Of a stretch of 25,867 nt of DNA, positions 2,841-25,867 are shown piece by piece (positions within the stretch are counted from its first letter, which is position 1; each line of letters opens with the position of its first letter). A model generated the notes under the pieces. That model did no database searches and had not been told where the DNA came from. It saw nothing but the letters and a program-made list of their open reading frames with translations. The DNA comes from a virus. Made by a program: the position numbers and the translations under genes. The stretch is taken from IMG/VR virus record IMGVR_UViG_3300007760_000088, positions 1 through 25,867 of that record; one strand, written 5' to 3'.

Positions 2841-3024
2841 GGAAATTCCCATGCCCCCGATACGCATTGAGTTATTGAATGCGCTTGACGCAAGGTTTCC
2901 AGCACAGCCTCCAGATCTTAAAGACCGCACGCGAGAGATCTGGTTCCGAGCAGGGCAGCGTGCAGCAGTTGAGTACTTGCATTCCATTCACCGACAACAG
3001 CAGGAAGATCAAGATGTGTTCTAG
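2821..3024 (+). CDS. Small hypothetical protein
   Basis: This is a 67-residue protein of unknown function, mostly charged and helical, with no signal peptide or membrane segment. It starts at a double ATG (2821/2824) preceded by GGGGAGA. It overlaps the upstream gene by 20 bases and the downstream proline-rich gene by 11 bases, so it fits the tightly coupled operon. The sequence RIELLNALDARFPAQPPDL followed by RAGQRAAVEYLHSI suggests two short helices. I do not recognise a family. The compact packing makes it a likely real gene despite its size. Confidence 0.6.
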   Translation: MMKDQSKEIPMPPIRIELLNALDARFPAQPPDLKDRTREIWFRAGQRAAVEYLHSIHRQQQEDQDVF

Positions 3025-3184
3025 CCCCAAGATGCCTGAACTCCCGCCCCCGCCCCCTCCTGCTCCCCCTGCGCCGGCCAAGAGTGCGAAGATCGTTAAC
3101 AGGCCCAAGGATCAGGCTGCAGCACAAGCACAGGCAGCGCGGCGCGGCACATCTCTGTATCGAATCCCTCAATTGAACTATTAA
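3014..3184 (+). CDS. Proline-rich small protein in the T7 gp7.3 position
   Basis: This 56-residue protein begins MCSSPKMPEL, runs into six consecutive prolines and Pro/Ala repeats, then has a basic Ala/Gln/Arg-rich C-terminus. Short proteins of this kind (Met-Cys start, polyproline, basic tail) are found just before the portal gene in T7-like phages, at the place of T7 gp7.3, a virion and tail assembly factor. Homology to gp7.3 is inferred from position and composition only. ATG 3014 follows AGGAAG with good spacing; the longer frame from 2879 has no such support. The stop TAA overlaps the portal ATG (TAATG), so the portal is probably translated by coupling. Six prolines in a row are expected to slow ribosomes unless EF-P acts. 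Confidence 0.65.
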   Translation: MCSSPKMPELPPPPPPAPPAPAKSAKIVNRPKDQAAAQAQAARRGTSLYRIPQLNY

Positions 3185-4719
3185 TGCACACCACTGCCGC
3201 GAAGATGTATGCCAAGCTCGAGACGCGGCGGCGGCCTTTTCTTGATCGCGCTAGGGATTGCTCACGCCTGACGATACCGTCAGTAATGCCTGCCGAGATG
3301 CATTCAGGTGCAGATACATTCCCGCAGCCTTACAACTCGACCGGCTCCCGCGGATGCACGCATTTGGCAAGCCGCATTCTGATGACCTTGCTCCCGCCAG
3401 GTGGGCGATTCTTCAGGCTGCAGTACGACTCTGTCGAACTGGCTAAGGCTACAGGTATGGATGACCTGCTTGGTGAGATGGACTCAGCCCTGGCTCTGAT
3501 TGAGGAGCAGGTGCATCAGGAGGTAGATGCAAGCAACTTCCGTATCCAACTCTTCCAGGTGCTCAGGCACCTGATTGTCACAGGTAACTCCTGCCTGTAC
3601 CTCAGCCCAAGCGGCACTGCTCAGGTCTACCATCTCAACCAGTATGTATGCGACCGTGCTGCAGACGGGACCTTGTTGACTCTGGTTATCAAAGAAGATG
3701 TGGCCTACGAAGCGCTGACGGATGAGCTCAAAGCCTATTGCAAGAGTGGGCGCAAAGAAGTCCCTGTGTACACCTGCGTGAAACTGCAAGAGGGCGGCAA
3801 GTACATGGCATTCCAAGAGATGTACGGGAACGCTATCCCTGGCACAGAGGGTGAGTACGATGCAGAGACTCTTCCTTGGATTCCTCTGCGCTTCATCAGA
3901 GCTAACAGTGCTGAGTCAATGGGCAGATCCCTATGCGAGGAGCATCTAGGTGACCTGCGCGTAGCTGAGTCAATCTCGCAAAGCGTGACAGAGGCTGCTG
4001 CTATCAGCGCACGCACAATATTCCTTGTCTCGGGCACAGGCACAACTCGAGCTCGGGCGCTGAGTAAGGCGCAGAATGGTGCGATCATTGAAGGCAACGC
4101 TGGAGATGTGAGTGTCCTCCAGACAGCGAAGCAGAACGACCTGCAGATTGCTTACCAGGTCTTGCGCTCTGCTGAAGAAAGACTCGCGCAGGCTTTCATG
4201 CTGACTGCTGGCCTCATCCGAGACAGCGAAAGAACGACAGCACGCGAGGTTGAGCTTGTAGCGCAGCAACTTGAGGAGACGCTAGGCGGGGTGTACTCGA
4301 ATCTAGCGCAGGAGCTGATGCAACCTATCGTCAAGATACTGCTCTCGCGCATGTCTCAAGCAGGCAAGATGCCCTCGCTGCCTCCTAACCTTGTCAAGGC
4401 ACAGGTGATCACAGGGCTCCCTAACCTTGGCAGGCAGGCAGACCTTCAGCGCCTCGCCATGTTCGTGCAAAACGCCGCACAGACACTTGGGCCTCAGGCA
4501 GTAGATCGCTACATACAAGTGCCTGAATACCTACGCAGGTCTGCAGCTGCACTCTCAATCAATGCTGCTGGCCTGGTACGAAACGAGGAGGAGGTATCCC
4601 AAATGGACCAGGCAGCGCAGCAGCAACAACTCACGGGGCAACTCGGTCCCAGCGTCATGAGTAACTTCAAGGAGGAGATTTCGGCGCAACTACAACCGCC
4701 GGCAGACGAAAATGGATAG
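3184..4719 (+). CDS. Portal (head-tail connector), T7 gp8-like
   Basis: This is the dodecameric portal protein through which DNA is packaged and ejected. At 511 residues it is close to T7 gp8 (about 535). The N-terminus, with the segments KLETRRRPFLDRARDCSRL and PYNSTGSRGCTHLASRILMTLLPPG, is typical of the podovirus head-tail connector family. The C-terminal part is Gln-rich (about 475-486). The start overlaps the preceding stop (TAATG), and no strong ribosome site precedes it, which implies translational coupling. It overlaps the scaffold gene by 8 bases. Confidence 0.95.
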   Translation: MHTTAAKMYAKLETRRRPFLDRARDCSRLTIPSVMPAEMHSGADTFPQPYNSTGSRGCTHLASRILMTLLPPGGRFFRLQYDSVELAKATGMDDLLGEMDSALALIEEQVHQEVDASNFRIQLFQVLRHLIVTGNSCLYLSPSGTAQVYHLNQYVCDRAADGTLLTLVIKEDVAYEALTDELKAYCKSGRKEVPVYTCVKLQEGGKYMAFQEMYGNAIPGTEGEYDAETLPWIPLRFIRANSAESMGRSLCEEHLGDLRVAESISQSVTEAAAISARTIFLVSGTGTTRARALSKAQNGAIIEGNAGDVSVLQTAKQNDLQIAYQVLRSAEERLAQAFMLTAGLIRDSERTTAREVELVAQQLEETLGGVYSNLAQELMQPIVKILLSRMSQAGKMPSLPPNLVKAQVITGLPNLGRQADLQRLAMFVQNAAQTLGPQAVDRYIQVPEYLRRSAAALSINAAGLVRNEEEVSQMDQAAQQQQLTGQLGPSVMSNFKEEISAQLQPPADENG

Positions 4720-7094: not shown

Positions 7095-7127
7095 ACTGAG
7101 TAGGACTCCTTGTAGTTCTCTCCTCCT

Positions 7128-7170
7128 GGGGGGCTGCTGATCTTCGGGTCAGTGGTCCCCCTCTTTTTTA
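7128..7170 (+). terminator. Strong intrinsic terminator after the capsid gene
   Basis: GGGGGGCTGCTGATC (7128-7142) pairs along all 15 positions, with a few G-U pairs, with GGTCAGTGGTCCCCC (7147-7161). The loop is the extra-stable C(UUCG)G tetraloop (7143-7146), and the U-run TTTTTT (7164-7169) follows. This is the position of T7 T-phi, which sets the ratio of capsid to downstream tail transcripts. Confidence 0.93.
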
Positions 7171-7182
7171 TCCACTCTGAAC

Positions 7183-7785
7183 ATGGCAATCACAAGCAAA
7201 CTCACAGCGCTCAATCAGATGCTCTCCATATTAGGAGAGATGCCTGTGTCGAGTCTTGACGCAGAAGCTGCAGTACCCGCTGTGATCATGGCTCAGAATG
7301 TGCTTGACGAGGTCCATATAGAAGTGGACAGCATGGGTTGGCACTACAACACAGAGCAGGATGTTGAGCTGGCCTTCGATTCTAATGGTGATATCTTTGT
7401 CCCTACTACGATTGTGCGTCTCGATGTGAAGGCAGGCAATCATTCAGCGATGGACATCGTCCTACGCGGTAATCGTTTGTATGACCTGAAAGAACATACC
7501 TACACATTCACCACACCTATCAAAATAGACGCTATCTACCACAGGGCTTGGGATGACCTACCAGAGCCTGCTGCCAGGTACATCACAGTCAGAGCTGGAA
7601 GAATCCTGCAAGACAGAGTGATCGGATCGCAAGCTCAGAATGCCTACGCAAGTCGCGATGAGTACACTGCTCTAGTGTCTCTGCGAGAATTCGAGGGTGA
7701 CACAGGTGATTACACGATGCTTCAGGCACCTGATGTAGCTAAGACGATCTTCCGCGGGCCATTGAGTGGAGTGACATCTAGATGA
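7183..7785 (+). CDS. Tail tubular protein A, T7 gp11-like
   Basis: This is the gatekeeper ring protein that joins the portal to the tail nozzle. At 200 residues it is close to T7 gp11 (196). The N-terminus MAITSKLTALNQMLSILGE is typical of the family, which supports ATG 7183. That ATG lies only 13 bases after the terminator U-run and has no visible Shine-Dalgarno sequence, so expression depends on readthrough and an atypical initiation region. Its 3' end overlaps tail tubular protein B by 4 bases (ATGA). Confidence 0.93.
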   Translation: MAITSKLTALNQMLSILGEMPVSSLDAEAAVPAVIMAQNVLDEVHIEVDSMGWHYNTEQDVELAFDSNGDIFVPTTIVRLDVKAGNHSAMDIVLRGNRLYDLKEHTYTFTTPIKIDAIYHRAWDDLPEPAARYITVRAGRILQDRVIGSQAQNAYASRDEYTALVSLREFEGDTGDYTMLQAPDVAKTIFRGPLSGVTSR

Positions 7786-10700
7786 CGCTCATTGCCAGCT
7801 CAGTCCCTAGCCTTCTAGGTGGAGTGAGTCAGCAACCGACATCTGTCAGATTCCCCAACCAGTGCGCTGTATCCGACAATGCCTTAGCTTCAGTTGTTGA
7901 AGGCCTGACCAAGCGACCGCACACTGAGCACATTGCTAAGATCATTGATGGAACTCTGGGGTTGGCAAAGGTCCATATCATTGACCGCGGTGTAGGCGAG
8001 CGCTACGCGGTGATCATGCGGGACAAGGCGCTTAATGTCTTCGACCTGACTACTGGTGTGGAGTTAGGTGTGTATGACTCGAGCGGCAATCTAGCAGACG
8101 CTGCAGATCTAGCGTACCTGGCAAGCGCTGACCCTGTCTCTGATTTCAATGCGGTGACTGTAGCTGACTACACCTTCATAGCGAACGGCAGCAAGACTGT
8201 TGAGCTCAACACGCAGACAAACCCTGACGCGCAAGAAGCAGCGTTCCTGTTCGTACAGCAGTCAGCTTATGAAGTTGACTACAAGGTGAGGCTGCAGTCT
8301 TCTGCTGATGCAGCCCCCGAACTGGTATCACTCAGCACATGGGATGGAGATAACACTTCTGGTAATTTAAAGGAGGTCATGCGGATCAGCTCTATTGTAA
8401 CTGCCGTTGGCACCTGGTCTGGTTCAGTGCTGGGCACCACTTGGAGTCTGAGTTACTCCACAGGGCCATTCGAAATACAATTGGCATCTAACATCAGTGC
8501 AGTGCAGGGTGTCACTGCTGAATACCATAATGGTGCGGTCGACATAACATGCGATCACCCTGGGCTTGACCAGCGCTTTACTATTGATGCGGCTCCAACA
8601 GGGGGCAGCTGGAGTCTGGGAACGATTGTAGACGATACGATTACTGAGGAGCAATCATTAAAGACCACAGACCTGGCGACAAGGCTGGCAACAGAAATCA
8701 GCGCACTGACTAACTGGACAGCGTCTTCGATTGGATCAACGGTCAAGATTGAGCCTGCCAGTGGTGAGACAATTGACCTCCTTGAAGTAGAGGACTCAGT
8801 AGGCAGCACCTACCTGAAAAGGGTTTGGCAGAGCGTCAGCTCGATCTCAGACCTCCCGCTCAATTGCCAAGACGGTCATGTCATCCGTATCAACGGTGAC
8901 CAGTCCAGTAATCAGGATGACTATTTCCTGAAGTTTGCGGCTGAGGTTACAGGCAGTTTCGGACCTGGCGTTTGGGAGGAGGCCCCTGAGCCTGGAATTG
9001 AACAAGGGCTAGACACGCTGACTATGCCGCTGGTCCTGGTGCGTAAGATTGCAACAGATACATTTCCCAGCGCACTCAATGAGGGTGATCCTTACTTCGC
9101 AGCGGGAACTAACCCAGAGTCATACGCGAGTTTTGAATGGACAGACCGCGTCGCGGGTAGCGCTGAAACAAACCCCAGCCCTAGCTTTGTCGGGAAGCAG
9201 ATAAAAGGCATCTTCTTCCACGGAAATCGTCTTGGATTCCTTGCTGATCAGAATGTGATCATGAGCGAGACGGGACTCTATGGGAATTTCTGGCGCACCA
9301 CTGTGCTCACGCTGCCTGATTCTGAACCTGTAGATCTGGGTGTTGGGCACACCCGCGTGTCGCTCCTGAATCACGCAATCCCATTCAACGAGCGGCTGTA
9401 CTTGTTCAGTGACAGGACACAGTTTGTAATACCTCAGTCTGTGATCACCCCCTCTACGGCAACCATTGTCACAGCCGCCGAGTATGAGAACAGCGCAGAT
9501 GTAGGTGGTGTGCTGGTAGGCAGCAGCATCTTCTTCCCATTCGGCACGGACGGGTTTGGCCGCATACTTGAGATGTTCCCAAACTCAACAGATGGGACCC
9601 AGGTCAATATCATTGACTCCACGCAGCACATCCCTCAATACATGCCAGGTGCTATCAGTGCGCTGACAGGATCAACGACTGAGTCTATACTTGCCGCTAC
9701 AAGCACAACTGACACCAATGCGATCTATGTGCTCTCGTTCTTGCAGCAGGGCCGTGAGCGCTTGCAATCAGCTTGGCAGCGGTTTGTGCTTGGAGCAGGT
9801 TCAGAAATCATAGGGGCCGGCTTTATCGAAGAGGTGCTCTACCTCACGGTCAAGCGCACAGAAGGGCTCTTTCTTGAATCAATCACATTTGGAAGCGGGC
9901 AATCTGACACAGACAGCACCTACAGGATAGCGCTAGATAGGCGTATCACTGAAGCAGACTTGACTTCTGTCGCATACTCTGCTGACGATCATGAAACAAC
10001 GCTGACGCTTCCCTACGATTTGGACAACAGCGCCGAGTATCAGGTTGTCACTCGCACGCTGAATGGCAAAAACGATCCCTTCAACCTCCTGGGTGGAACT
10101 GAGGCATTCGAGGGCGGGGGTTGGGTCAGTTCAACGCTGAATCCTGGTGGTGGCGCGGATATAAGCATTAGCCGTAACACCCACACAGCCCCAGATGGTG
10201 AACTGACTGCTGACACGCTGACAGGCTTAGGTGATTCAACGCATGACCTGTCCCAAACGGTTGGCGGGGGCGCTAATCCTATTGCTCCAGTTGTGGGCGA
10301 CAGTTATACCTGGTCGATATTCGTCAAGAAAGATCAGGTAGAAGACACAATGCACTTTGTGCTCGATCTCTACCCCGCGTCAGTCTCCCCCTGGGAGCAG
10401 ATAGCTTTCGCCTTAGACACATCGACTGGCCTGGTGACCTACGACTCCTCAGTCTCACAGGGCCCGCTTGGTGCCTATAGCGCGTCAAGCATCACCTCGA
10501 GCCTGCAAGATGGTGACTGGTGGAGAGTGTCTGCAACGCTCACTTATTACGCACCTTCTGGTGCTAATGTGGTTGATCGCGCACGCATAAGTTTGCGCCC
10601 TACTTCAGGCACTGCCATCAGGTCGATAACTGTCTGGGGAGCTCAACTCGTTAAGAACGATCTTGCTGAACCTTACACAAGGGTTGGAGGCGTAGTTGTA

Positions 10701-11141
10701 CCTCAAGAGTCAAAGACTACAAACACCATTGTGCTGCGCGGGGATTGGACAACGACTCCTCTGTGGCTAGGCGAACAGTATGCAATGAAATACGAATTCT
10801 CTGAGATCAATCTCAAGGAGAACTCAGGGCGTCAGGGGCGCAAGGGTATCGTAGCAACAGCAGAGTATTACCTGCGACACGCTACTGTCTTGTTCGATGA
10901 GACTGGTTATTTCAAGCTCAGTGTGCAGCCTAAGTACCGTGCTGCCACAGTACAGCAGTTCACTTCAAATGTACTAGGCGGGGACATAGGTCTGCGTAGT
11001 GGGCGCGAGAGATTCAGCGCAATAGGCAATGCAAAAGACCTGACGATCAGTATTGAGAACGACTCGCCCCTCCCCTCTAACATTCTAGGCATCGAGTGGA
11101 CAGCCAGGTACAACTCAAAGAGCGCCAGATACGCGATATAG
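7782..11141 (+). CDS. Tail tubular protein B (nozzle), T7 gp12-like, enlarged
   Basis: This forms the tail nozzle. The N-terminus (SVPSLLGGVSQQPTSVRFPNQC) and a middle block (DYFLKFAAEV to LDTLTMPLVLVRK, about residues 380-425) are family hallmarks. The product is 1119 residues against about 794 in T7. One extra block is around residues 190-340. A clearer one is at about 767-970: it starts NLLGGTEAFEGGGW, contains TAPDGELTADTL and WSIFVKK, and ends VWGAQLVKNDLAEPYTRVGG. That pattern belongs to jelly-roll carbohydrate-binding domains common in phage fibres. The nozzle sequence then resumes (LWLGEQYAMKYEFSEINLKE, near 1010). Start and stop both overlap neighbours. Function of the core is sure; the domain assignment of the insert is inferred from sequence pattern. 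Confidence 0.94.
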   Translation: MTLIASSVPSLLGGVSQQPTSVRFPNQCAVSDNALASVVEGLTKRPHTEHIAKIIDGTLGLAKVHIIDRGVGERYAVIMRDKALNVFDLTTGVELGVYDSSGNLADAADLAYLASADPVSDFNAVTVADYTFIANGSKTVELNTQTNPDAQEAAFLFVQQSAYEVDYKVRLQSSADAAPELVSLSTWDGDNTSGNLKEVMRISSIVTAVGTWSGSVLGTTWSLSYSTGPFEIQLASNISAVQGVTAEYHNGAVDITCDHPGLDQRFTIDAAPTGGSWSLGTIVDDTITEEQSLKTTDLATRLATEISALTNWTASSIGSTVKIEPASGETIDLLEVEDSVGSTYLKRVWQSVSSISDLPLNCQDGHVIRINGDQSSNQDDYFLKFAAEVTGSFGPGVWEEAPEPGIEQGLDTLTMPLVLVRKIATDTFPSALNEGDPYFAAGTNPESYASFEWTDRVAGSAETNPSPSFVGKQIKGIFFHGNRLGFLADQNVIMSETGLYGNFWRTTVLTLPDSEPVDLGVGHTRVSLLNHAIPFNERLYLFSDRTQFVIPQSVITPSTATIVTAAEYENSADVGGVLVGSSIFFPFGTDGFGRILEMFPNSTDGTQVNIIDSTQHIPQYMPGAISALTGSTTESILAATSTTDTNAIYVLSFLQQGRERLQSAWQRFVLGAGSEIIGAGFIEEVLYLTVKRTEGLFLESITFGSGQSDTDSTYRIALDRRITEADLTSVAYSADDHETTLTLPYDLDNSAEYQVVTRTLNGKNDPFNLLGGTEAFEGGGWVSSTLNPGGGADISISRNTHTAPDGELTADTLTGLGDSTHDLSQTVGGGANPIAPVVGDSYTWSIFVKKDQVEDTMHFVLDLYPASVSPWEQIAFALDTSTGLVTYDSSVSQGPLGAYSASSITSSLQDGDWWRVSATLTYYAPSGANVVDRARISLRPTSGTAIRSITVWGAQLVKNDLAEPYTRVGGVVVPQESKTTNTIVLRGDWTTTPLWLGEQYAMKYEFSEINLKENSGRQGRKGIVATAEYYLRHATVLFDETGYFKLSVQPKYRAATVQQFTSNVLGGDIGLRSGRERFSAIGNAKDLTISIENDSPLPSNILGIEWTARYNSKSARYAI

Positions 11142-12110: not shown

Positions 12111-15100
12111 ATGCCCCGCAAACCTGCTGCACAACTGCCTAGCGCTATTCCGTCCCCGCAGGCTGCACCAGTTTCAACCTACTACGATCCCCGCCTCCCT
12201 CTGCCCCAAGCTGACCCTACTGCGGGTGAGCTCCAGAAATTCGCTGACAGCCTCTCCAAGTGGGGCCTGCTGCAATGGAAGGACGACAAGGAGGAGGCTA
12301 AGGCTGCGGCTATCAAGTCTGCCTGGGACATCTCCGACAGCGACCTGAGGGAGTTAGTTGAAGCAGACCTTGCGCCTGACACTCCTGATGTTTATGGGCC
12401 TGATCCTGCTCCTGCTGCTATCACTGCTGAAGCTGCAGCTAAGGAAGCAGAAGACCGTGCGCGACATAAAGAACTGCGCGCCAACTTCCTTGACATGCGT
12501 AGCAAGGGATTGGCAAAGAACGCAGATCCGTTCTATCGCAAGTGGAGGTCGCAGATACTAGCGTCACGCCTCGCTCGTCAATACGGTTCAGATGTTGAGA
12601 TCAGGCTGAAGGAAGCGTATGAGCTCGACCCAGACACTGGTGAGCCTGCGCTTGACTACAGTGACCTGGCGCAGGAGATCTACGGGAAGTACGAAGGGCT
12701 CGTCAGTCAGCTAGGCATTCATGGCGAGGAAGCCTTCGCCCCTCTGAAGGGTGTGAAAGACTCTGAACTCGCAGATCGAGCAATCAGGGAGATCAACGCC
12801 CGAGAGGATGATCAGGCAACGCGGGAGACTGCAGTCGCAGCCACAACTATGATGGTTGAGCTGGCCCTAGGCCCTGTCGCTGGCGTGACTGATGATTTCG
12901 GCCAGGTGGATTACGCTGACCCTGAGCAACTCAAGAAGATTGCGGAGTTCTACAAGGCCGCATGGGACAATGTGGATGATCTGCGTGAGGCTATTCCCGC
13001 GCACATAAAGGCGGCCGCGCACATCCTCTTGCAGAAAGAGCGCGATAAGGAATTGCCAGAAGGTGAAGGGGAAAGGATGGCTCTTGAAATGCTTGAGACT
13101 CTGCTACCTTCTGGTGACGAGGATGGCAAGGGTTTGATCCTGGGAACGAGCATCAAGTACGATGAGATCGTGCAGGCACAGATCTCAGACTTGAAATCTG
13201 AGATTGAGGCTACAGCAGAAAAGAACAACGAGACCCGCGATAAGCGGAAGAGGAAGCGCATCTACGACCAGGCCGCTGCCATTATGCTCGAAGTGCAGGC
13301 AGCCGGGGGCACCGAAGACGAGGCGCTTAAGGCTGCCACAGATGCCCTCGCGCAAGACGGGCTAGACCCTAATGATGCCATAGTTGTGGCGCAACTGGAG
13401 CGCCTTAGTGCAGTGTTTACTGACGCTAAAGACGCAGGCAAATGGGAGCCGACTAAGGCGGCTGATATGAAATTTGAATATCATTCAATGCTGATTGCTG
13501 GTGCCTCTGAATCAGAGATAATCGAATGGATGGTCAGCACTGGTGCACTTAGAGGGGACCCAGATTTCTATGGTCCCATCCTTAGGAATATGAAGAGCGC
13601 TAGCTTTTCCGCGCAGGCTCAGAAGCACCCCCAAATAGTGGATGCGAGGGCAGCAGCACTCGCTCAAATATCTCCTGATTACGGGCCTAAATACATGAAA
13701 GACATGGGTGTCTTACGGACTCAATTGACTCAACTCATGTCTGAAGCGGATACTGCGGTCGAGGCGGTAAAGATCGCAAATGTGTACGGTACTAAATTCG
13801 AGGAGGCCACCACTGCGGAGCGCAATCGTGTAAGAGGTATTGAAGAAAAGTTTCAGAGGCACCTTGATAAGTTCGAGCCCGAAGACGCACGCGCCCTCCT
13901 CAAGCAGGAGCAAGGCACATTAACGCGCCGCACTGAAACGCAATTGAATGAGCGCCTCGGGAGGTTCAAGCCCGAAGAGTTGTGGCGCACGGCGCTTCTA
14001 GGGGATATTGCTAACAAGGTAAAGGTGCACAAGGGGAGGAATGCGTTGTTTGTGGCCGCATCAGATAAGAACAGCGTATTCAACGACGATGACGCATTTA
14101 TCCAGGCTAACAAGGATGCTGGGAGTATTGAGGCTTCTTTGCAGGAAAGGGCACATGATATGTGGAAGAAGTTACGGGGCACTATGCCGCCGGCTGAACT
14201 CATCAACCGCATCACCAACGAACTAGAGCCAGTTGCTGAAGAGAGGTTCTCAACTTGGTATCAGAGTGCGAGTACTACCACTGGGACAGACACGGAAACA
14301 TTAAGGACTGTGGTAATGAAAGGTGTAACCCCTGCACTGCTGGAAGACCAACAGGGGTCTACTCCACACGGCGCTGTCTCTGATCCTAACATTGCCGAGG
14401 CGTTGCAGATCTCTGAGAGGGCAGGAAAAATGACTTACTCGCCGCGGCGCATCCTTCAAAGGCAGACAGAATTTGCTATGGATCCCAATAGCCTGGGCAG
14501 TCTTGCATTTGAGCGTGCGCGAGACATGCGCGATCTGCGTATCTTTCTCGTAGACCGCCAAGCGCTTGCTGGGTTATCTAGTGACCAGCGTGACTCTTTA
14601 GTGATCGCCGTAGCACGCACGCGAAACATAAGCATTGGTAACCTGGTGAGTGGGACAATGACCATTACCGGGCGGGGAGACGCTGCCCCGTGGAAAAGGG
14701 GGATTCAATCTGATCACCAGGTCAACATTTCACCAGAGCACTTGAAAGCTATCGGCCTTTCGTCATTCTCCCCTAAGTCCAATCTCTTTGTACACAGCGA
14801 GGAGGACAGTATCCTGCTCAATATACTTGCTACAGGTGAAGACAGTCAGGGTGCAGCTGTAACTGAGGTCAGCGTGGATGGTGTTGCTGTTCCACTTGAA
14901 GAAGCACAGCGGAGACTGCTTGGTGCGTTTGGCATCTCGGAGAAGTCTGTGGCAAACAAATTGGAAGCTGGAGACTTAGGTGACTGGATCAAAGACATTG
15001 CGGAACAGCAGGTTGCTCTTAGCATTAATTGGGCGGTCTCTGGTCCTATGACACCAGGTGAGCGGAATAAACTAGGCAAGAGCTGGGCTTTGGCCCCAGG

Positions 15101-15389
15101 CACTAAGTTCAAAGAGGCTATGAAGAAGCCGGAGAGACCAAAGGTTGAGCTGGTAGGCCCTACATTGGACTCCTTCAGGAAGTTCTCCAAGTCGCTCGGG
15201 GAGACGCTGGTCACCGCACCAACAACTAAAGATCTTGGGGCATTCCTGCAGTTCGCTCAGAAGCAGGATCAAGCCTGGGCCAAGAGTGGATTTGCTACTC
15301 CAGAATTTATCTGGGAACGCATAGAACGCGATGACGCACTCACTGCCCAGTTCATCAAATACCTCGGCAGGAGCCAGGAGAACAATTAA
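12111..15389 (+). CDS. Internal virion protein C, T7 gp15-like
   Basis: This large, mostly helical and charged core protein forms the ejectosome tube with the gp16-like protein. At 1092 residues it is much longer than T7 gp15 (747). The N-terminus is Pro-rich (residues 1-40), followed by GELQKFADSLSKWGLLQWKD, the usual gp15 opening motif. The rest is repeated charged helices with no membrane segments and no visible enzyme motif. Assignment rests on position, size and the N-terminal pattern. The TAA stop overlaps the next ATG (TAATG). Confidence 0.88.
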   Translation: MPRKPAAQLPSAIPSPQAAPVSTYYDPRLPLPQADPTAGELQKFADSLSKWGLLQWKDDKEEAKAAAIKSAWDISDSDLRELVEADLAPDTPDVYGPDPAPAAITAEAAAKEAEDRARHKELRANFLDMRSKGLAKNADPFYRKWRSQILASRLARQYGSDVEIRLKEAYELDPDTGEPALDYSDLAQEIYGKYEGLVSQLGIHGEEAFAPLKGVKDSELADRAIREINAREDDQATRETAVAATTMMVELALGPVAGVTDDFGQVDYADPEQLKKIAEFYKAAWDNVDDLREAIPAHIKAAAHILLQKERDKELPEGEGERMALEMLETLLPSGDEDGKGLILGTSIKYDEIVQAQISDLKSEIEATAEKNNETRDKRKRKRIYDQAAAIMLEVQAAGGTEDEALKAATDALAQDGLDPNDAIVVAQLERLSAVFTDAKDAGKWEPTKAADMKFEYHSMLIAGASESEIIEWMVSTGALRGDPDFYGPILRNMKSASFSAQAQKHPQIVDARAAALAQISPDYGPKYMKDMGVLRTQLTQLMSEADTAVEAVKIANVYGTKFEEATTAERNRVRGIEEKFQRHLDKFEPEDARALLKQEQGTLTRRTETQLNERLGRFKPEELWRTALLGDIANKVKVHKGRNALFVAASDKNSVFNDDDAFIQANKDAGSIEASLQERAHDMWKKLRGTMPPAELINRITNELEPVAEERFSTWYQSASTTTGTDTETLRTVVMKGVTPALLEDQQGSTPHGAVSDPNIAEALQISERAGKMTYSPRRILQRQTEFAMDPNSLGSLAFERARDMRDLRIFLVDRQALAGLSSDQRDSLVIAVARTRNISIGNLVSGTMTITGRGDAAPWKRGIQSDHQVNISPEHLKAIGLSSFSPKSNLFVHSEEDSILLNILATGEDSQGAAVTEVSVDGVAVPLEEAQRRLLGAFGISEKSVANKLEAGDLGDWIKDIAEQQVALSINWAVSGPMTPGERNKLGKSWALAPGTKFKEAMKKPERPKVELVGPTLDSFRKFSKSLGETLVTAPTTKDLGAFLQFAQKQDQAWAKSGFATPEFIWERIERDDALTAQFIKYLGRSQENN

Positions 15390-18300
15390 TGCCGCAAGAC
15401 AACTTCGTGTATGGGAAGCAGCCCTGGATGAGCGGATTCGGGGCAGATAGCCCACCTTATACCCCGCCCCCCTCAGGCGCTGCCGATGTGCATGAGTTCT
15501 TCGATTGGGGTGATCTTGGCATGGGTATCATCGGCGCACCTGTCGAGATGGCAAGTGACCTCTACGGTTTCGCTGATGCACTTGCCTTTGATTCTCTGCC
15601 AGACTGGGAGGCGAGTGATCTGATTGGTGAGCGTACCTCCACCATGGGCGACATCACGCAGGAGATGATCCCCTGGTTGTTCACCTTCAGCAAGGTGTCG
15701 AAATTCTTAGGGGCAGGCGCAAAGATCGGGAAGACTCGCTACCTCAAAGGTCTCTCAGAGACCTCTCAGAAAGTGCTGGCGCGGCGCGGGAACATCAAAG
15801 GTGCGGCTGCTCTACGCATCGGCAGGGCAAATATGGCTGCAGGGCTTACAACAGCAACACTGTACGAGAGGCAGGAAGGGTCACTTACCGAGGCCCTCCA
15901 GCGTATCCCCTACTTGGGCGACCTGGTGCCTGACTTTCTTGACACTGATCCAGATGACGGTGAGGCTGTCTTGCGTCTCAAAGCAGGGCTAGAGGATGCT
16001 CTCTTCGGAGGCATGATAGAAACAGCAGTAGTTGTCTTCAGAGGCATGAGGGGTGTGCGTGCTGCACAGCGCAAGAACCCTGACATGACACCTGAAGAGA
16101 TCGATGAGCTTGCTGAAAGACTGATTGATCAAGACGAACTAGGTGCTGCGCTTGAGCGTGATGGCATCGTACCTGCGTCTAAGGTTGATGATGTTGTTGA
16201 AGAGACAGGAGAGAGGACAGCAGGAGATGTGCCTGAAAGTGCCATCCCACGCGGTCTCATTGATGACGCTGAAGAGGCAGTAGCAAGAGCTGATTCTCAA
16301 GTTGATGAGTTCATGCCTGACAATGCTCAGGAGATCCTTGACATTGCCGAGAGACGCAACCCTGGTGATTGGGCTCATGGAGAGGGCCGCGGCGAGATAT
16401 TGAACCCTAGAGAGCGTCTGGAGGATGGGAGCTATCGATACTCCACTTCTGAGTTGTACCGCAGGCTCACTCTACGCAAGGGTCTGAATGTACAGAACAC
16501 TCTGCTCTCAACTGCAAACCCCCAGGACATGGTCAACCTGATCAGAGCGCTAGATCTCAAGCACTCCAAGATGATCAAAGGGCGCGAACTCGTCACTGAG
16601 GAGCAACTCAGTTCTGCGATGCAGAAGATGAAAGACTTCTACAATGTGGATGACGCCGGCCTCATCCAGAAGCTGAACCCTTCCCTGACGGGCCGCTTTG
16701 GTGCAGGCATGAGTGACGCAGACATCTTGCGTGAATTAGGCCAGAGTGCCATGGCTCACGAGATGACGATGGCACCCCTGTTTGATCAGTTCACGCGCCT
16801 GATGAAGAAGGCTGAAAAGACAGGCAGCCTCGGTGACATGATGGACGCGATGAAGGCGGTAGACAACTTCACTACAGCCTCGAGTGGCGTGCGGGACTTC
16901 AGGGGAGAATGGGGCCGCCAGGGTCGCTTCATGCAGACGCCCCTAGGAGGGCTGCAGCCATCCCAACTCAAGAAGATCTTGGCAGAGCAGGGGCTGGACA
17001 CAAAAGCTATCCAGCGCCAGCTTGACCGTGTCTCAGCTGCACTCAAGCAGAACCCCCACCTGTCTGACTTTGAGAAGATGGCCGGCGTTGCAAAGATGCT
17101 CCGCGGCAAGAAGTTCCGTTGGGGTGATGTAGTCACAGAAGGCTGGGTGAATGCCATTTTGAGCGCCCCCGCCACGCATGTGGCGAACATCATTGGCAAC
17201 TCGATGACGCTTGCGCTGCGTCCTGTCGAGCTCGCCGCAGGTAGCCTGGTGAATCTCAACTCGCGAGGCATGCGTGCTGCGTTTGAGCAGATCAAGTTCA
17301 TCACCAGCGACACCCTCGATGCTCTGTCCCTAGGACTGTCTGTTGAAAGGAACGAGTTCCTGCGCCCGATAGGCAATACCAAGTGGCAGGCTATTGGGCG
17401 CAACAGATCAATTGGGCAACATACCCTCTCCCAGGATTTCATTGATAAGCACCCAGGTGGGGCAGCGCTGGTTGAGCGTGTAGGCAAGATGGTCAACATC
17501 TCAGGCACTCTGCTGGAGAACATGGACAACTTCTTCAAGCAGATCAACTTCCGCTCACGCATCAAGATGCGTCTCTTCGACAAAGGGATGACAGAGTTAG
17601 GCATGCAAGGGGCAGAGGCTGCTGAGTATGTTGTCAAGGAGATGGATCGCATCGTGGACAACGGTCAGATCATCGCGTCTGAAGAGTTCTTCAAACGCGG
17701 TCTAGCGATGGGCCTGAAGCACTTCAAAGGTGACAAGGCGAAAGCTCTGCCATTCGCAAAGCGTTACGCTCGGAAACAGTACAAGGAAAACCGCGCCTTT
17801 GTGGATGAGGCTATGGGATTCGCTGAAGAGAACACCTTCACCAAAAAGCACTCCAAGGAGCGTGGGACACTGTCAGGCATCGCGGCTGGACTTCAATCCT
17901 TCACAGCAGATTTCTGGCCGGCGAGATTCTACATCCCGTTTGTAGGTACGCCAACGAACCTCCTGCTCTATGCGGCAGACAGGATGAATCCGATGGAGAT
18001 GGCAAAGATGGTTGCAGAGCCCATCAATTTCAGGAGGAGCACGCCAGCCCTGAACGAGATCAGGAGTCGCGTTGTCAAAGAACTGCGTAGTGGAGATGTG
18101 ATCATTCAGCGTGAAGCTGTTGGACGGGTCATGCTAGGTAACGCGTTGGTTGTCACTGCTTGGAACCTGGCGATGCAGGGCAAGATCACGGGGCGCGGGC
18201 CGGCGAACTTGCAAGAGCGGAAACTGCTGGAGAGGTCAGAGACAGGTTGGCAACCTTACTCGTTCCTCATAGGTGGCAAAGCCTATTCGTTCCATCGCCT

Positions 18301-19180
18301 GGACCCGCTGGCGACCATGCTCGGGACGGTAGCGGATGTAGTGGCAGCTCTAAGCCAGACAGGGACAGATGACACCTCTAAACTTGAGGCAGTTGCCTCT
18401 GGGCTCTGGGCTGCTGCACAGAACAACTTCACCGAGAAGTCCTACATGAAGGGACTCAAGGCTATGATGGAGATGGGGGGCGCTGACAGCGAACAAGCAT
18501 TGAAAGCTATGCGCCCAATCTTCGGAGGGTTTGTCCCTAACATTCTACCGCGTACATTAGGCGTGCCTGCGATGCCACTGACAGGTGACGATACAATGCG
18601 CGAAGTTGGTGGACTGTTAGAATTCGCTCTAGCTCGAGTGCCCTACTTCTCTAAGACACTCCCGCCACAACGCAATGTGCTAGGTGAGGTTGTGAAGCGC
18701 AAGGGCACAATGTCGAAGCGCCCTGGGCTCTCAATCATTGAGTCCATGTTCCTGCCTATCCAGTACACAGAGACCAACGATGAGTCTGTGCTCGGTGAAT
18801 TCGCTTCTCTGAAAGGCACAGCGTTCTACCCACCGCAGGTACGACCTGGTGGAATCGACTATCGCGAGTTTGAGAACGCAGAGGGTCAAGATGCCTACGA
18901 CAGGTTCATGGAGCTGCATGGTGTGGTGACAGTTGAAGGAATGCACTTGAAGCAGGCGCTAAAGAAGCTCTTCAAGACTGAAGCGTACTTGCGTGCATCT
19001 CCTGAAACCCTGCCTGGTGTCCCCTCACCGCGGGCTGAGATGATCAAGAAATACATCAACATCTTCCGCAGGGCAGCGAGAAATCGCCTCCTACGCGAAT
19101 TCCCCGAAATCAGAGAGGCCCAGCGCGAAATGCGAATCAAAAGCAGGAAGCAACTAGTGTCTGAGGCACTCAACAACTAA
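15389..19180 (+). CDS. Internal virion protein D, T7 gp16-like, no visible transglycosylase
   Basis: This 1263-residue core protein (T7 gp16 1318) is expected to be ejected and to cross the inner membrane. Conserved segments include WVNAILSAPATHVANIIGNS (about 584-603) and FWPARFYIPFVGTPTNLLLY (about 843-862), both typical of large podovirus ejection proteins. T7 gp16 carries a lytic transglycosylase in its first ~150 residues. Here the N-terminus (MPQDNFVYGKQPWMSGFG, then PPYTPPP) shows no such domain or catalytic-Glu motif, and residues 100-300 are charged and helical. ATG 15389 follows AGGAG (15376-15380) with an 8-base gap and overlaps the upstream stop. Confidence 0.9.
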   Translation: MPQDNFVYGKQPWMSGFGADSPPYTPPPSGAADVHEFFDWGDLGMGIIGAPVEMASDLYGFADALAFDSLPDWEASDLIGERTSTMGDITQEMIPWLFTFSKVSKFLGAGAKIGKTRYLKGLSETSQKVLARRGNIKGAAALRIGRANMAAGLTTATLYERQEGSLTEALQRIPYLGDLVPDFLDTDPDDGEAVLRLKAGLEDALFGGMIETAVVVFRGMRGVRAAQRKNPDMTPEEIDELAERLIDQDELGAALERDGIVPASKVDDVVEETGERTAGDVPESAIPRGLIDDAEEAVARADSQVDEFMPDNAQEILDIAERRNPGDWAHGEGRGEILNPRERLEDGSYRYSTSELYRRLTLRKGLNVQNTLLSTANPQDMVNLIRALDLKHSKMIKGRELVTEEQLSSAMQKMKDFYNVDDAGLIQKLNPSLTGRFGAGMSDADILRELGQSAMAHEMTMAPLFDQFTRLMKKAEKTGSLGDMMDAMKAVDNFTTASSGVRDFRGEWGRQGRFMQTPLGGLQPSQLKKILAEQGLDTKAIQRQLDRVSAALKQNPHLSDFEKMAGVAKMLRGKKFRWGDVVTEGWVNAILSAPATHVANIIGNSMTLALRPVELAAGSLVNLNSRGMRAAFEQIKFITSDTLDALSLGLSVERNEFLRPIGNTKWQAIGRNRSIGQHTLSQDFIDKHPGGAALVERVGKMVNISGTLLENMDNFFKQINFRSRIKMRLFDKGMTELGMQGAEAAEYVVKEMDRIVDNGQIIASEEFFKRGLAMGLKHFKGDKAKALPFAKRYARKQYKENRAFVDEAMGFAEENTFTKKHSKERGTLSGIAAGLQSFTADFWPARFYIPFVGTPTNLLLYAADRMNPMEMAKMVAEPINFRRSTPALNEIRSRVVKELRSGDVIIQREAVGRVMLGNALVVTAWNLAMQGKITGRGPANLQERKLLERSETGWQPYSFLIGGKAYSFHRLDPLATMLGTVADVVAALSQTGTDDTSKLEAVASGLWAAAQNNFTEKSYMKGLKAMMEMGGADSEQALKAMRPIFGGFVPNILPRTLGVPAMPLTGDDTMREVGGLLEFALARVPYFSKTLPPQRNVLGEVVKRKGTMSKRPGLSIIESMFLPIQYTETNDESVLGEFASLKGTAFYPPQVRPGGIDYREFENAEGQDAYDRFMELHGVVTVEGMHLKQALKKLFKTEAYLRASPETLPGVPSPRAEMIKKYINIFRRAARNRLLREFPEIREAQREMRIKSRKQLVSEALNN

Positions 19181-22844: not shown

Positions 22845-23095
22845 TGAAGACTTCATTCGATGATCTATTCGAGGAGGGCTTTCACGCCTCTATCGAGACA
22901 TTGCTTGACCGCATCAAAGCGGGTGAGGCTACAGCTCAGGAAATCAAGGAGTTCCGCTCTCTAATGAAAGACGCGAACTTCTTCGAGCGTGTCCTGCTGA
23001 ACGAGACACCTATTCTTGAGATCTCTGAGCGCCTGCCTTTCGTTGACCCTGAGCACAAGAGTGTGACTGATGGACCTAGCGAGATGGTAGGTTGA
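22844..23095 (+). CDS. terS: Small terminase subunit, T7 gp18-like
   Basis: This 83-residue protein is the expected size (T7 gp18 is 89) and lies directly before the large terminase. The helical sequence FHASIETLLDRIKAGEATAQEIKEFRSLMKDANFF resembles small terminase subunits of T7-like phages, which recognise the concatemer for packaging. ATG 22844 forms a TGATG overlap with the upstream stop; GTG 22829 in the same frame is possible. The stop TGA lies within TTGA, overlapping the large terminase start. Confidence 0.8.
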   Translation: MKTSFDDLFEEGFHASIETLLDRIKAGEATAQEIKEFRSLMKDANFFERVLLNETPILEISERLPFVDPEHKSVTDGPSEMVG

Positions 23096-24795
23096 CAAAA
23101 GCGCCTCAGATTGACCCAAGACTCAAGGACTTTCGTAACACAGCGTACCTGGTCTTCACTCATCTGGGGTTTGACCCTACCCCGCTGCAGTACGAACTAG
23201 CAGATTTCCTGCAAACAGAGGATCAGAGGATCTTCATATGCGGCTACAGGGGGATCGGAAAGAGTCTGTTGACTTCAGCGTTCATCCTGCACTCATTGCT
23301 GCACAATCCTGCTCTCAACTGCGTGATTGTCAGCGCTTCAAGAGCTCGAGCTGACCTCTTCAGTGGGTTCTGCATGCGGCTGATGCAGGAGATGGAGATC
23401 TTCAAGCATATGTATCCTGGGCCTGACCAACGCAATGCTAAGGTTGCCTTCGATGTTGCCGGCGCACCGGCCGCACATCAGCCTTCTGTGTATTCTTCAG
23501 GTGCTACGGGCCAGCTCACCGGCATGCGCTCTGACATCTTGATTGCTGATGATGCTGAAAGCCTCAACAATTCAATCAGCCCCCTGATGCGCGAGCGCCT
23601 GCTGCATCGCATCGCAGAGTTCGAGAACCTGATGAAGGCCGGGGGAAGGCAGATCATCCTAGGAACACCTCAATCACATGAATCGATCTACAGGTCACTC
23701 AAGTCGAAGGGTTTCTCAACCCGCTACTGGCCGGCGCGTTACCCCAGTCAGGAGGACATCAACCACTACGATGGTGGGTTGGCTCCATCGATTCACCAGG
23801 CGCTGTTGGACAATCCTAAAATCGAAGGCAGCGCGACTGATCCAGGCAGGTTCACAGATCTAGATCTAGCCGAGAGACAAGCCTCGAGTGGTACGCAGAA
23901 CTTCAAGCTGCAGTATCAGCTGAACACTACGACAACAGACGCTGACCGTTGGCCTCTGAAGTTGAGTGACATGATCGTGCATAGTCTTGACAAGACCCTG
24001 CTGCCTGAGCGCTTGATCTGGGCTGCTGACCCTGATCTAGAGATCAAAGACCTGCCCTGCATAGGATTCAGCGGGGACAGGTACTACAGACCTTTCAAGG
24101 TTGAAGGCGATCACCTCGAGCCTGAGAAGACAATCTGTGCATTTGACCCAAGTGGACGCGGCAAAGATGAGTCAGCTATCTGCATCGCGCAAGTACTGAA
24201 TGGGTATATCTTCATACGCCAGGTCGAGGGTTGGCTAGACGGATACTCAGAGAAGACGCTCAGGTCAATTGCTCAATACTGCAAGCGCTGGGAAGTGAAT
24301 GAGATCATCATTGAGAACAACTTCGGGGATGGCGCTGTGACAGAGCTGATGCGTCCTGTGATGCGCGAGATCTACCCCTGCGTGATCAGCGAATCTAGGA
24401 GCACAGGACAGAAGGAGGTCAGGATCATTGATCAATCGCTTGAGCCTATCCTCTCTTCTCATCGTCTAGTTGTTGACAAGAAGGTGCTGGCAAAAGACTA
24501 CAACTCTGTGCAGAGCTCTGACCGCGGTGAGAGGGCAGCGCATTACTCACTCGCCTACCAGATTTCAAGGATCAATCGCTCAAAGGGATGCCTGCCAAAT
24601 GATGACAGGGTTGATGTGCTTGCTCAAGCCTGCACACACTTCATCGATCAACTCGCCAAAGATGCTGCGACACAAATGGTAAGACGCAAAGAGGAACTGA
24701 CAGACATCGCAATCGAGAAGTTCCTCGCTGACGCTGACGGCATCTCACGCCCGCAGGGACCAAACTGGATGACCACAACATCACTCCACACCTGA
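23092..24795 (+). CDS. terL: Large terminase subunit, T7 gp19-like
   Basis: This ATP-driven packaging motor and nuclease has 567 residues (T7 gp19 586). The ATPase has Walker A GYRGIGKS (51-58), Walker B SDILIADDAE (147-156) and the coupling segment ILGTPQSHES (189-198). The RNase-H-like nuclease has FDPSGRGKDE (Asp352), ENNFGDG (Glu408, Asp413) and DDRVD near 504-508. The start is TTG 23092; no ATG or GTG lies in frame nearby, and TTGA overlaps the small terminase stop, so translation is probably coupled. No coding region follows for 460 bases. Confidence 0.97.
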   Translation: MTKAPQIDPRLKDFRNTAYLVFTHLGFDPTPLQYELADFLQTEDQRIFICGYRGIGKSLLTSAFILHSLLHNPALNCVIVSASRARADLFSGFCMRLMQEMEIFKHMYPGPDQRNAKVAFDVAGAPAAHQPSVYSSGATGQLTGMRSDILIADDAESLNNSISPLMRERLLHRIAEFENLMKAGGRQIILGTPQSHESIYRSLKSKGFSTRYWPARYPSQEDINHYDGGLAPSIHQALLDNPKIEGSATDPGRFTDLDLAERQASSGTQNFKLQYQLNTTTTDADRWPLKLSDMIVHSLDKTLLPERLIWAADPDLEIKDLPCIGFSGDRYYRPFKVEGDHLEPEKTICAFDPSGRGKDESAICIAQVLNGYIFIRQVEGWLDGYSEKTLRSIAQYCKRWEVNEIIIENNFGDGAVTELMRPVMREIYPCVISESRSTGQKEVRIIDQSLEPILSSHRLVVDKKVLAKDYNSVQSSDRGERAAHYSLAYQISRINRSKGCLPNDDRVDVLAQACTHFIDQLAKDAATQMVRRKEELTDIAIEKFLADADGISRPQGPNWMTTTSLHT

Positions 24796-24933
24796 TCACA
24801 ACACACGGATACTCTCACAGGCAAGGAGAGAGCGCTGGGCTGCGTTTTGGACAGAAACCACATATACACACCCGTCAAGCCAAAAAGCTCTTAGAGAGCC
24901 GGACAGGGACGATCACGAAAGACACCTGGTCAG

Positions 24934-24971
24934 AGGCATCACAGGCATCACAAGAGATCACAAGAGATCAC
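24934..24971. repeat. Short direct repeats (CATCAC/GATCAC type)
   Basis: Two exact 9-base copies of AGGCATCAC (24934-24942, 24943-24951) are followed directly by two exact 10-base copies of AAGAGATCAC (24952-24961, 24962-24971). All four units end in ATCAC. A related GATCAC lies just upstream, at 24911. Arrays of short repeats like this flank terminal repeats in T7. Confidence 0.85.
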
Positions 24972-25031
24972 AAGCCCTCTTAAGACTGCTGTGATGACAA
25001 ATTCAAATACCCCTGTTCTAAGGCCCTAGGA

Positions 25032-25054
25032 CATGCGGGACCAGTATAGGGAGA
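25032..25054 (+). promoter_or_regulatory. T7-RNA-polymerase-like promoter
   Basis: The sequence CAGTATAGGGAGA (25042-25054) differs at one base from the T7 promoter core CACTATAGGGAGA, with predicted +1 at G25049. The upstream specificity half matches T7 poorly, as expected for a divergent phage polymerase. An AT-rich tract follows it, as at the T7 primary origin. I found no second strong copy in the window, so the consensus cannot be built here. It implies a single-subunit RNA polymerase gene outside the window. Confidence 0.6.
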
Positions 25055-25067
25055 GGGAAAGACCCCC

Positions 25068-25087
25068 TATATATATATATATATATA
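25068..25087. repeat. (TA)10 dinucleotide tract
   Basis: Ten uninterrupted TA units are followed by AAAA. The tract starts 19 bases downstream of the predicted promoter start, in a genome region of otherwise mixed composition. It should melt easily, consistent with an origin DNA-unwinding element. Length could vary between isolates by slippage. Confidence 0.9.
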
Positions 25088-25150
25088 AAAAGACTCCCCA
25101 GACTAGGACTAAGAACAGGGGAGGGGATTTTAAATCCCCGACCCAAGCCA

Positions 25151-25180
25151 TCTTAAGACTTCTTAAGACTTCTTAAGAAG
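25151..25180. repeat. Tandem TCTTAAGACT repeats
   Basis: Two exact 10-base copies (25151-25160, 25161-25170) are followed by a third that matches for 8 bases (25171-25178). Another exact copy lies at 24978-24987. Each unit contains the palindrome CTTAAG. The copies at 24978 and 25151 enclose 163 bases, close to the size of the T7 terminal repeat (160), although this may be coincidence. Confidence 0.88.
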
Positions 25181-25195
25181 GGAAGAAGAAAGGAG

Positions 25196-25242
25196 GGGGC
25201 CTGGTGTGCCACATTTGCCGAGATCTCTAGACACCTAGCCCC
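25196..25242 (+). other. Hairpin upstream of the metallopeptidase gene
   Basis: GGGGC..GGTGT (25196-25207) pairs with ACACC..GCCCC (25231-25242), with a 2x2 internal loop and a 23-base apical loop. It ends 14 bases before the metallopeptidase ATG. It has no U-run, so it is not an intrinsic terminator; an RNA-processing or protein-binding site is possible. Confidence 0.35.
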
Positions 25243-25256
25243 TTCCACTTCCTCAT

Positions 25257-25619
25257 ATGCAACGCACGCTCTGTACACTCCAGGTAGGCGTGCAACAGCT
25301 GAAGGTGGTCTATGACCCTGATCTAGATGGCTGGGGGGCATACGATCCTCAAACGCACAGCATCAATATCAGCACACTGAGGTTCCCTGAACTGCAGCTG
25401 ACCGTGCTGCATGAGCTCCTGCACGCTGTAGATGACATGCTAGGCATCAAGCTCAGTGAGCAGGATGTGCGTTGTTTAGAGCAGATCTTGACACTTATAG
25501 TAAGAGACAATTACAACCTGGCGCTAGGCTGGGTTCAGGCATTTGACCCCGAAGAAAAGCATGAAATATCCACACGATTCAGAGATCAGCATGAGCCACC
25601 TGATTGCACCTCGAGCTGA
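25257..25619 (+). CDS. Small HExxH zinc metallopeptidase
   Basis: This 120-residue protein has the zinc-binding motif HELLH at residues 52-56 inside TVLHELLHAVDDMLGI, with Glu53 as the predicted catalytic base. The preceding YDPQTHSINIS segment (about 29-39) is the beta hairpin usual in small phage zincins. Similar proteins with ImmA/IrrE- or SprT-like cores are common and largely uncharacterised in phages; proposed roles include cleavage of host regulators. ATG 25257 has no ribosome site (a pyrimidine-rich stretch precedes it). GTG 25290 is an alternative that keeps the whole domain. The gene directly follows the terminal region, so it may be one of the first genes expressed if that region is the left genome end. 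Confidence 0.75.
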   Translation: MQRTLCTLQVGVQQLKVVYDPDLDGWGAYDPQTHSINISTLRFPELQLTVLHELLHAVDDMLGIKLSEQDVRCLEQILTLIVRDNYNLALGWVQAFDPEEKHEISTRFRDQHEPPDCTSS

Positions 25620-25818
25620 TCTCAGGATTGGTGGAGGGGGTGCTTCAAGGCGCAGAGCAAGCCTCAAGGTTCCTCAGCGTGAGCTAGCTCCGAGTATGAG
25701 ACAGACTGACAGGCCAGGTGCTTACATGTCTACATCAGCAGGCAGATCGTGGTCAATTGCTAGGATAGGCTCCGGGGTACGCGGGGCAGGTCCCCCACCC
25801 TCTAGAGGCGGCAGATGA
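25591..25818 (+). CDS. Small Gly/Arg/Ser-rich basic protein, unknown
   Basis: This 75-residue protein has low complexity and a high positive charge: LRIGGGGASRRRASLKV early on and GSGVRGAGPPPSRGGR at the C-terminus. No domain is recognised; it is probably disordered and could bind nucleic acid. ATG 25591 lies inside the end of the metallopeptidase gene (29-base overlap), and ATG 25561 in the same frame is also possible. Neither has a clear ribosome site. Its stop lies in a 20-base tandem repeat and overlaps an ATG (ATGA), which supports a real coding unit. Confidence 0.5.
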   Translation: MSHLIAPRADLRIGGGGASRRRASLKVPQRELAPSMRQTDRPGAYMSTSAGRSWSIARIGSGVRGAGPPPSRGGR

Positions 25819-25841
25819 GCACTAGAGGCGGCAGATGAGCA
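25802..25841 (+). repeat. Perfect 20-bp tandem duplication of a start/stop module
   Basis: CTAGAGGCGGCAGATGAGCA occurs twice, at 25802-25821 and 25822-25841, with no mismatch. Each unit carries GAGG six bases before ATG, and the ATGA of a stop/start overlap. The first ATG (25815) opens a 7-codon frame (MSTRGGR) whose TGA (25836-25838) overlaps the second ATG (25835). Confidence 0.95.
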
Positions 25842-25867
25842 AGTACTTTGATTGGATTGCGAAGCAT
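25835..25867 (+). CDS. Start of a gene cut by the window edge
   Basis: ATG 25835, preceded by GAGG at a 6-base distance, opens a frame reading MSKYFDWIAKH to the last base of the window. Eleven residues are too few to identify a family. The start is coupled to the upstream stop of a 7-codon frame created by the tandem duplication. Confidence 0.5.
   Translation, partial: MSKYFDWIAKH

Follow-up and report, generated by a model that had tools for sequence, protein, structure and literature searches.

Downstream of the gene coding for the terminase large subunit (TerL), whose product is 39-45% identical to the TerL of nine named T7-like phages, the window (the whole virus record analysed here, 25,867 b) holds a noncoding gap and then three small right-end genes (Table 1). 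The features that an earlier note had named in this gap, i.e. a T7-type promoter core, a (TA)10 tract, exact 10-base inverted arms and TCTTAAGACT copies 163 bases apart, were all recovered. Copies of TCTTAAGACT start at 24978, 25151 and 25161, the 163 bases separating the first two, and the array ends in an inverted repeat (25159-25168 / 25171-25180). As for the 10-base inverted repeat, it extends to 16 bases at 88% with the neighbouring bases. The TA tract lies 13 bases from the end of the core and 19 bases from its first G (+1, 25049). In the predicted fold, TATAGGG (25045) pairs with CCCTATA (25065, at the left edge of the TA tract), and the core would be partly buried in a stem, as the earlier note had proposed.

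Concerning the right-end genes, the HELLH motif of the first product is presumably zincin-like, and no PHROG family was found for the 91-aa ORF. Through a perfect 20-base tandem duplication (window 25802-25841), the start region (ATGAGCA) is present twice in the 84-aa ORF.

Table 1. Features of the gap downstream of the TerL gene and of the right-end genes (window positions)
Feature	Position	Strand	Basis or remark
Terminase large subunit gene (T7 gp19-like)	23092..24795	+	phrog_38, E 7e-97
Noncoding gap from TerL to first right-end gene, at the position of T7 phiOR	24796..25256 (461 b)		ORF list, synteny of relatives
Period-10 array ATCACAAGAG, 2.8 copies, 28 b	24947..24974		TRF
First TCTTAAGACT copy, including palindrome TCTTAAGA	24978..24987
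Inverted repeat, left arm CCCCTGTTCT, exact 10 bases	25010..25019	+
Candidate phage promoter core CAGTATAGGGAGA	25042..25054	+	predicted +1 at 25049
(TA)10 tract	25068..25087		begins at +20
Inverted repeat, right arm AGAACAGGGG, exact 10 bases	25112..25121	+
Small hairpin GGGGATTTTAAATCCCC	25123..25139
TCTTAAGACT array, 2.8 copies, 28 b (25151-25178)	25151..25180		TRF
First right-end gene, 120 aa, HELLH motif	25257..25619	+	phrog_1233
Second small right-end ORF, 91 aa	25543..25818	+
Third small right-end ORF, 84 aa, running on into contig G001	starts 25835..25867	+

Genome and gene content of the phage

A second contig, IMGVR_UViG_3300007512_000103 (36,778 b, hereafter G001), is near-identical to the window, with 99.97% identity over 22,835 b, 99.82% over 2,826 b and 13 differences. 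The window supplies the 206 b missing from G001 and so closes the map to a circle of 36,984 b. Map numbering starts at window base 3033, so that a window position equals the map position plus 3032, which is valid up to the window end (map 22,835).

The order of genes is that of T7 (DNA polymerase, exonuclease, portal, scaffold, capsid, tail tube, internal virion proteins and TerL), as judged from PHROG matches and leaving out the large tail and internal virion genes at 7782-11141, 12111-15389 and 15389-19180. A single-subunit RNA polymerase, without which the earlier note would have withdrawn its reading, is encoded by G001 (805 aa; Pfam RNA_pol, 2.6e-78, and also RPOL_N; E 5.5e-67 against the T7 RNA polymerase chain 1aro_P). 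Since this enzyme is 25-35% identical to seven compared polymerases (26% to that of T7), its promoter specificity is not readable from the sequence; by eye, one of its arginines aligns with T7 Arg746, a residue with a role in specificity. Other G001 genes code for a tyrosine integrase (map 25,095), a cytosine methylase, a GP88 protein, a primase-helicase and a RusA-like nuclease, while the match to the T7 single-strand binding protein is weak and below the Pfam cut-off. Judged by its sequence, this uncultured, integrase-bearing phage is T7-like (Autographiviridae as the records use the name).

No DNA relative of the last 5.9 kb of the window was found by blastn among 50,697 phage records. The pattern CAGTATAGGGAGAGGG occurs in five stretches of the viral contigs, namely G001 and four others, the latter being taken as chance because TerL, RNA polymerase, capsid and portal have no match in their DNA. 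Two further observations concern the rest of the window: an HNH endonuclease gene (1284-1817) overlaps the 3' end of the DNA polymerase gene, and a GC-rich hairpin with TTTTTT behind it, situated between the capsid gene and the tail genes (7095-7182), resembles by eye the T7 Tphi terminator.

The promoter candidate and its surroundings

The twelve bases TATAGGGAGAGG (25045-25056) are identical to positions -4 to +8 of T7 phiOR, while the upstream half (-17 to -5) matches that of T7 at 4 of 13 positions. T7 phiOR (NC_001604, 39229) likewise lies between TerL and the right-end gene, before the terminal repeat, and points rightward. It stands 99 b after gene 19; for the candidate, 254 b separate the predicted +1 from TerL and 208 b from the gene that follows. 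TATATA occurs at +25 in T7 phiOR and at +20 here, and the AT fraction from +1 to +60 is 0.62 in both. The upstream specificity region differs between the two, and the core within a stem and the pure (TA)10 tract set the present site apart.

The earlier note had proposed to look for further promoters of this type. Neither the window nor G001 contains a second core with at most one mismatch, compared with 17 phage promoters in the T7 record. Sites with at least 12 of 18 matches number 10, while the reversed motif gives 17. As a second site, GGACCAGTCTAAGGAAA (window 2829-2845) is the best, with 14 of 17 matches, and lies where two ORFs overlap, 355 b before the portal gene; on the plus strand, 118 of 2000 permuted motifs do equally well, and with three other motif lengths 315-448 of 2000 do. 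At most two mismatches being allowed, TATAGGGAGA is not over-represented in the window (10 observed vs. 14.4 expected).

Eighteen-base words shared upstream of 35 gene starts were also compared, giving 177 pairs with at least 14 matches vs. 63-99 in five mononucleotide shuffles, and a best pair of 17/18 matches vs. 15-16 in the shuffles. A promoter family built on these words was rejected: the excess consists of overlapping words of few pairs, and the pairs inspected fall within coding sequence, in two places only, none of them including the candidate core. The best pair (window 20465 and map 26,873; GCGCTGATC(G/C)TAGGTGTG, 17/18) lies in coding sequence at most 200 b upstream of gene starts.

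The occurrence of the core was then counted in T7-like relatives, drawn from 160 loci, of which 80 are the best of at least 600 viral stretches and 80 the best of 111 genome stretches. For this count 147 loci were used, the other 13 having less than 400 b downstream or being duplicates. With at most one mismatch, TATAGGGAGA was found 10 times, in 9 loci, within the first 500 b after TerL, while the controls on the same 147 relatives gave 2 (reversed motif), 2 (minus strand) and 0.7 (scaled TerL coding sequence). The exact ten-base TATAGGGAGA occurs once after TerL, in locus L122, and is absent from the controls. Exact TATAGGG is present 22 times on the plus strand, 12 times on the minus strand and 5 times in reversed form, and the plus vs. 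minus counts indicate that part of this enrichment is due to the palindrome CCTATAGG.

This palindrome, as CCTATAGG(G), recurs in the right-end regions of T7-like genomes (map 23,244-23,253 in G001, and loci L117, L118, L121, L152 and L153) and is also found in T7, just before its repeat. Another relative, L053, carries a tandem duplication of ~120 b with two identical copies of ATGATCGTATAGGGGGA, 111 and 231 b past the TerL stop; ATGATCGTATAGGGGGA is a probable promoter of that locus.

The singularity of the module was evaluated on dinucleotide shuffles of the 461-base gap. A 20-base TA run appeared in none of 1000 shuffles, and it is the sole TA or AT run of at least 10 bases in the genome; TATAGGGAGA was rare as well (14 of 5000 shuffles). 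The repeats alone are unremarkable, since 10-base direct and inverted repeats were obtained in 134 and 37 of 1000 shuffles, respectively. The predicted RNA folds of 25010-25121 (z -4.6) and 24968-25200 (z -5.2) were equalled by none of 300 and none of 200 shuffles, respectively, the energy of the former being only 16th among 659 genome windows.

Such a strong RNA structure right after the last late gene would also be expected if the stem-loops served to terminate the late transcript or to process its 3' end, with the T7-like core in the stem a coincidence. The uniqueness of the core in the genome agrees with this, as do the LUZ100 terminators T20-T22, which lie between the end of TerL and the terminal repeat or overlap the repeat, and the many small palindromes seen by eye after TerL in the relatives. 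However, no five-U run follows the stems (by eye), no plus-strand site was returned by a terminator scan of 24700-25867, and the core recurs at the same position in relatives above the controls, so that a purely structural role of this kind is considered rather unlikely. As a whole, these data make it likely that the core at 25042-25054 has promoter activity for the phage RNA polymerase, an activity which is unproven insofar as the core is unique in the genome.

Predicted position of the genome end

The left end of the direct terminal repeat is marked in T7-like phages and prophages by a signal of two blocks, a first one close to TTGGnnnAAAAATCTGAGAG and, after a spacer of ~25 b (mostly 24-26 b), a C-run close to TTCCCCCCGTGGG. 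The reference ends were identical record ends or annotations for T7, Syn5, HTVC019P, LUZ100, Pasto and ProddE, while for RHEph21, a circular record, the start was taken as the end. Counted from where the first block begins, the cut of the record is at exactly 24 b in T7, Syn5, HTVC019P and Pasto, and at other offsets in LUZ100 (36), ProddE (32) and RHEph21 (14). The seeds had been chosen by eye next to the record ends. In a leave-one-out test of block plus C-run, the site adjoining the record end came first in 7 of 7 genomes. It did so again (7/7) after the two-block model had been refitted on 100 distinct rows from other loci; this refit contained no seeds from the seven genomes, yet its training rows had been chosen with the seed-based model.

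Among the 160 relative loci, 128 have a site of at least 18 bits after TerL. For the 146 loci with at least 600 b downstream, the best site is on the plus strand and reaches 18 bits in 124, always past TerL and 26-4,613 b from its stop; this 124/124 is partly built in, because the model was fitted only on sequence downstream of TerL. The seven-genome tests ran on whole genomes and are free of this bias. None of the literature matches listed on termini or packaging was a paper on a group-wide terminus signal, much of the T3/T7 packaging work in subscription journals lying outside the search, and a search with the letters of the first block listed only matches unrelated by title.

In the present phage, the top two-block site is at map 23,061-23,080 (CAGTTCACAAATTATGAGCA, followed 27 b on by GCGCCCCCCGTGGG), with a predicted cut at map 23,085, i.e. 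~13,694 on the minus strand of G001 and 250 b past the window end. The cut would thus lie ~1.07 kb (1,068 b) downstream of the promoter core, about twice as far as in T7, where phiOR stands 549 b before the repeat. This site is weak, with 12.5 bits vs. 22-36 in the seven other genomes, the next site having 5.2. A score of 12.5 bits was attained somewhere in 64 of 200 Markov genomes, and in 6 of 2000 random stretches standing for the syntenic interval between the HELLH gene and the GP88 gene, an interval picked after the site had been seen. A single-block model placed the same site 94th (3.4 bits), its own top site being at map 33,556 (13.1 bits); as the two-block model was made after this ranking, the first rank of map 23,061 is not a blind prediction.

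Other observations concern the same place. Of the 659 RNA windows, the one with the lowest energy starts at map 23,073, where the terminus is predicted. A repeat at map 23,357-23,428 follows it, to be compared with the short repeats after the left repeat of T7. By eye and by comparison with LUZ100, the right end of the terminal repeat might be guessed near map 23,337. Gene order provides an independent argument. In all three relatives with a homologue of the 25257 gene (L089, L029 and L054), that homologue is placed after TerL and before the terminus signal, and homologues of GP88, a left-end gene, lie beyond the signal in 12 of 12 loci, some of the loci in these counts being related to each other; the GP88 gene is on the minus strand in this phage and on the plus strand in the 12 homologues. 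Since the module precedes the 25257 gene, it belongs to the inner side of the genome end, and on these sequence comparisons the end itself is probably situated ~1 kb beyond the module, just outside the window.

The earlier note had taken the module for a concatemer junction, with a terminal repeat in or around 24978-25180 and an end-located origin inside. The module is indeed downstream of TerL and near the right end of the gene map, it combines a promoter-like core with an AT tract, and its two short arrays enclose 176 b, which is near the 160-b repeat of T7. The single-block model even ranks a site of the gap, 24877, above that at map 23,061 (35th, with 5.7 bits, vs. 94th). Against this, the two-block model gives -6.0 for 24877 and -2.8 at best anywhere in the 24796-25256 gap, compared with 12.5 at map 23,061; the gene after the module is a right-end gene by its position before the signal in the relatives, and the lowest-energy RNA window is away from the module. 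That both contig records run unbroken through the region fits junction and non-junction readings alike. All in all, a junction at this place is improbable. A terminus at ~24842 (TTTTGGACAGAAACC) was also considered and dropped, 24877 being the best single-block site of the gap.

A probable right-end control region

A phage with a tyrosine integrase and with direct and inverted repeats in the gap could be thought to carry there an attachment or recombinase site, or a stem-loop bound by another phage protein, but the integrase gene is ~3 kb away from the module and neither a tRNA nor an Rfam match was found within the window, to which the tRNA scan was confined, which makes such a role extremely improbable. 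For comparison, a tRNA-Leu adjoins the integrase gene in LUZ100 and lies ~2 kb from it in Pasto.

The explanation held here, with moderate confidence, is that the segment is an intergenic right-end control region, the counterpart of the T7 phiOR region, with a promoter for the phage's own RNA polymerase. It is based on the place next to TerL, the 12-base match to phiOR, the presence of this polymerase, the enrichment of the core in relatives and a predicted terminus lying downstream. From the earlier note, this retains the T7-like nature of the phage, the T7-type core near the right end and the AT tract, and it abandons the concatemer junction.

A comparable arrangement exists in LUZ100 (OP329100), another T7-like phage with an integrase, whose phage-specific promoter phi8 is annotated between TerL and the direct terminal repeat. 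The core differs: ATTACCACACAG is found in 7 of the 8 phage promoters of the LUZ100 record. The promoters of the LUZ100 study come from ONT-cappable-seq data, with five phage-specific promoters found above its threshold and three recovered by motif.

If the phiOR-counterpart explanation holds, rightward transcription from ~25049 would pass through the three small right-end genes, and the transcript would continue across the terminal repeat, which is predicted ~1.07 kb further on. Next to the promoter candidate, the (TA)10 tract and the hairpin form an easily melted stretch, and the site may on this account be a secondary replication start. The stem around the core would arise in RNA that reads through from TerL and, at the DNA level, solely by extrusion; with a start at 25049, the transcript would be without the left arm of the stem.

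The T7 primary origin consists of phi1.1A and phi1.1B plus an AT-rich tract, and, in T7 and T3, replication starts at promoters that have AT-rich DNA behind them, while packaging is aided by transcription through the junction and by pausing of the polymerase there. The module resembles the T7 primary origin in that a promoter, here a candidate one, is followed by AT-rich DNA, whereas its genome position differs. An origin function of the module is only possible and speculative, and the same holds for any part played by the hairpin or the TCTTAAGACT repeats. The idea of the earlier note that the promoter in its stem could couple transcription with replication and packaging is likewise speculation. 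A more elaborate version, in which a sole T7-type promoter is set in a foldable stem with (TA)10, extrusion or melting would switch between repeat-crossing transcription (packaging) and replication initiation, and the late genes would use other promoters, must be regarded as very doubtful.

With this phage, the metagenomic T7-like phages gain an integrase-bearing member that has a phiOR-like site. It also suggests that repeats near TerL together with a promoter are poor markers of the genome end in the T7-like group. The terminus signal may be the more useful by-product, and the two blocks may allow the ends of assembled T7-like genomes to be placed from their sequence alone.
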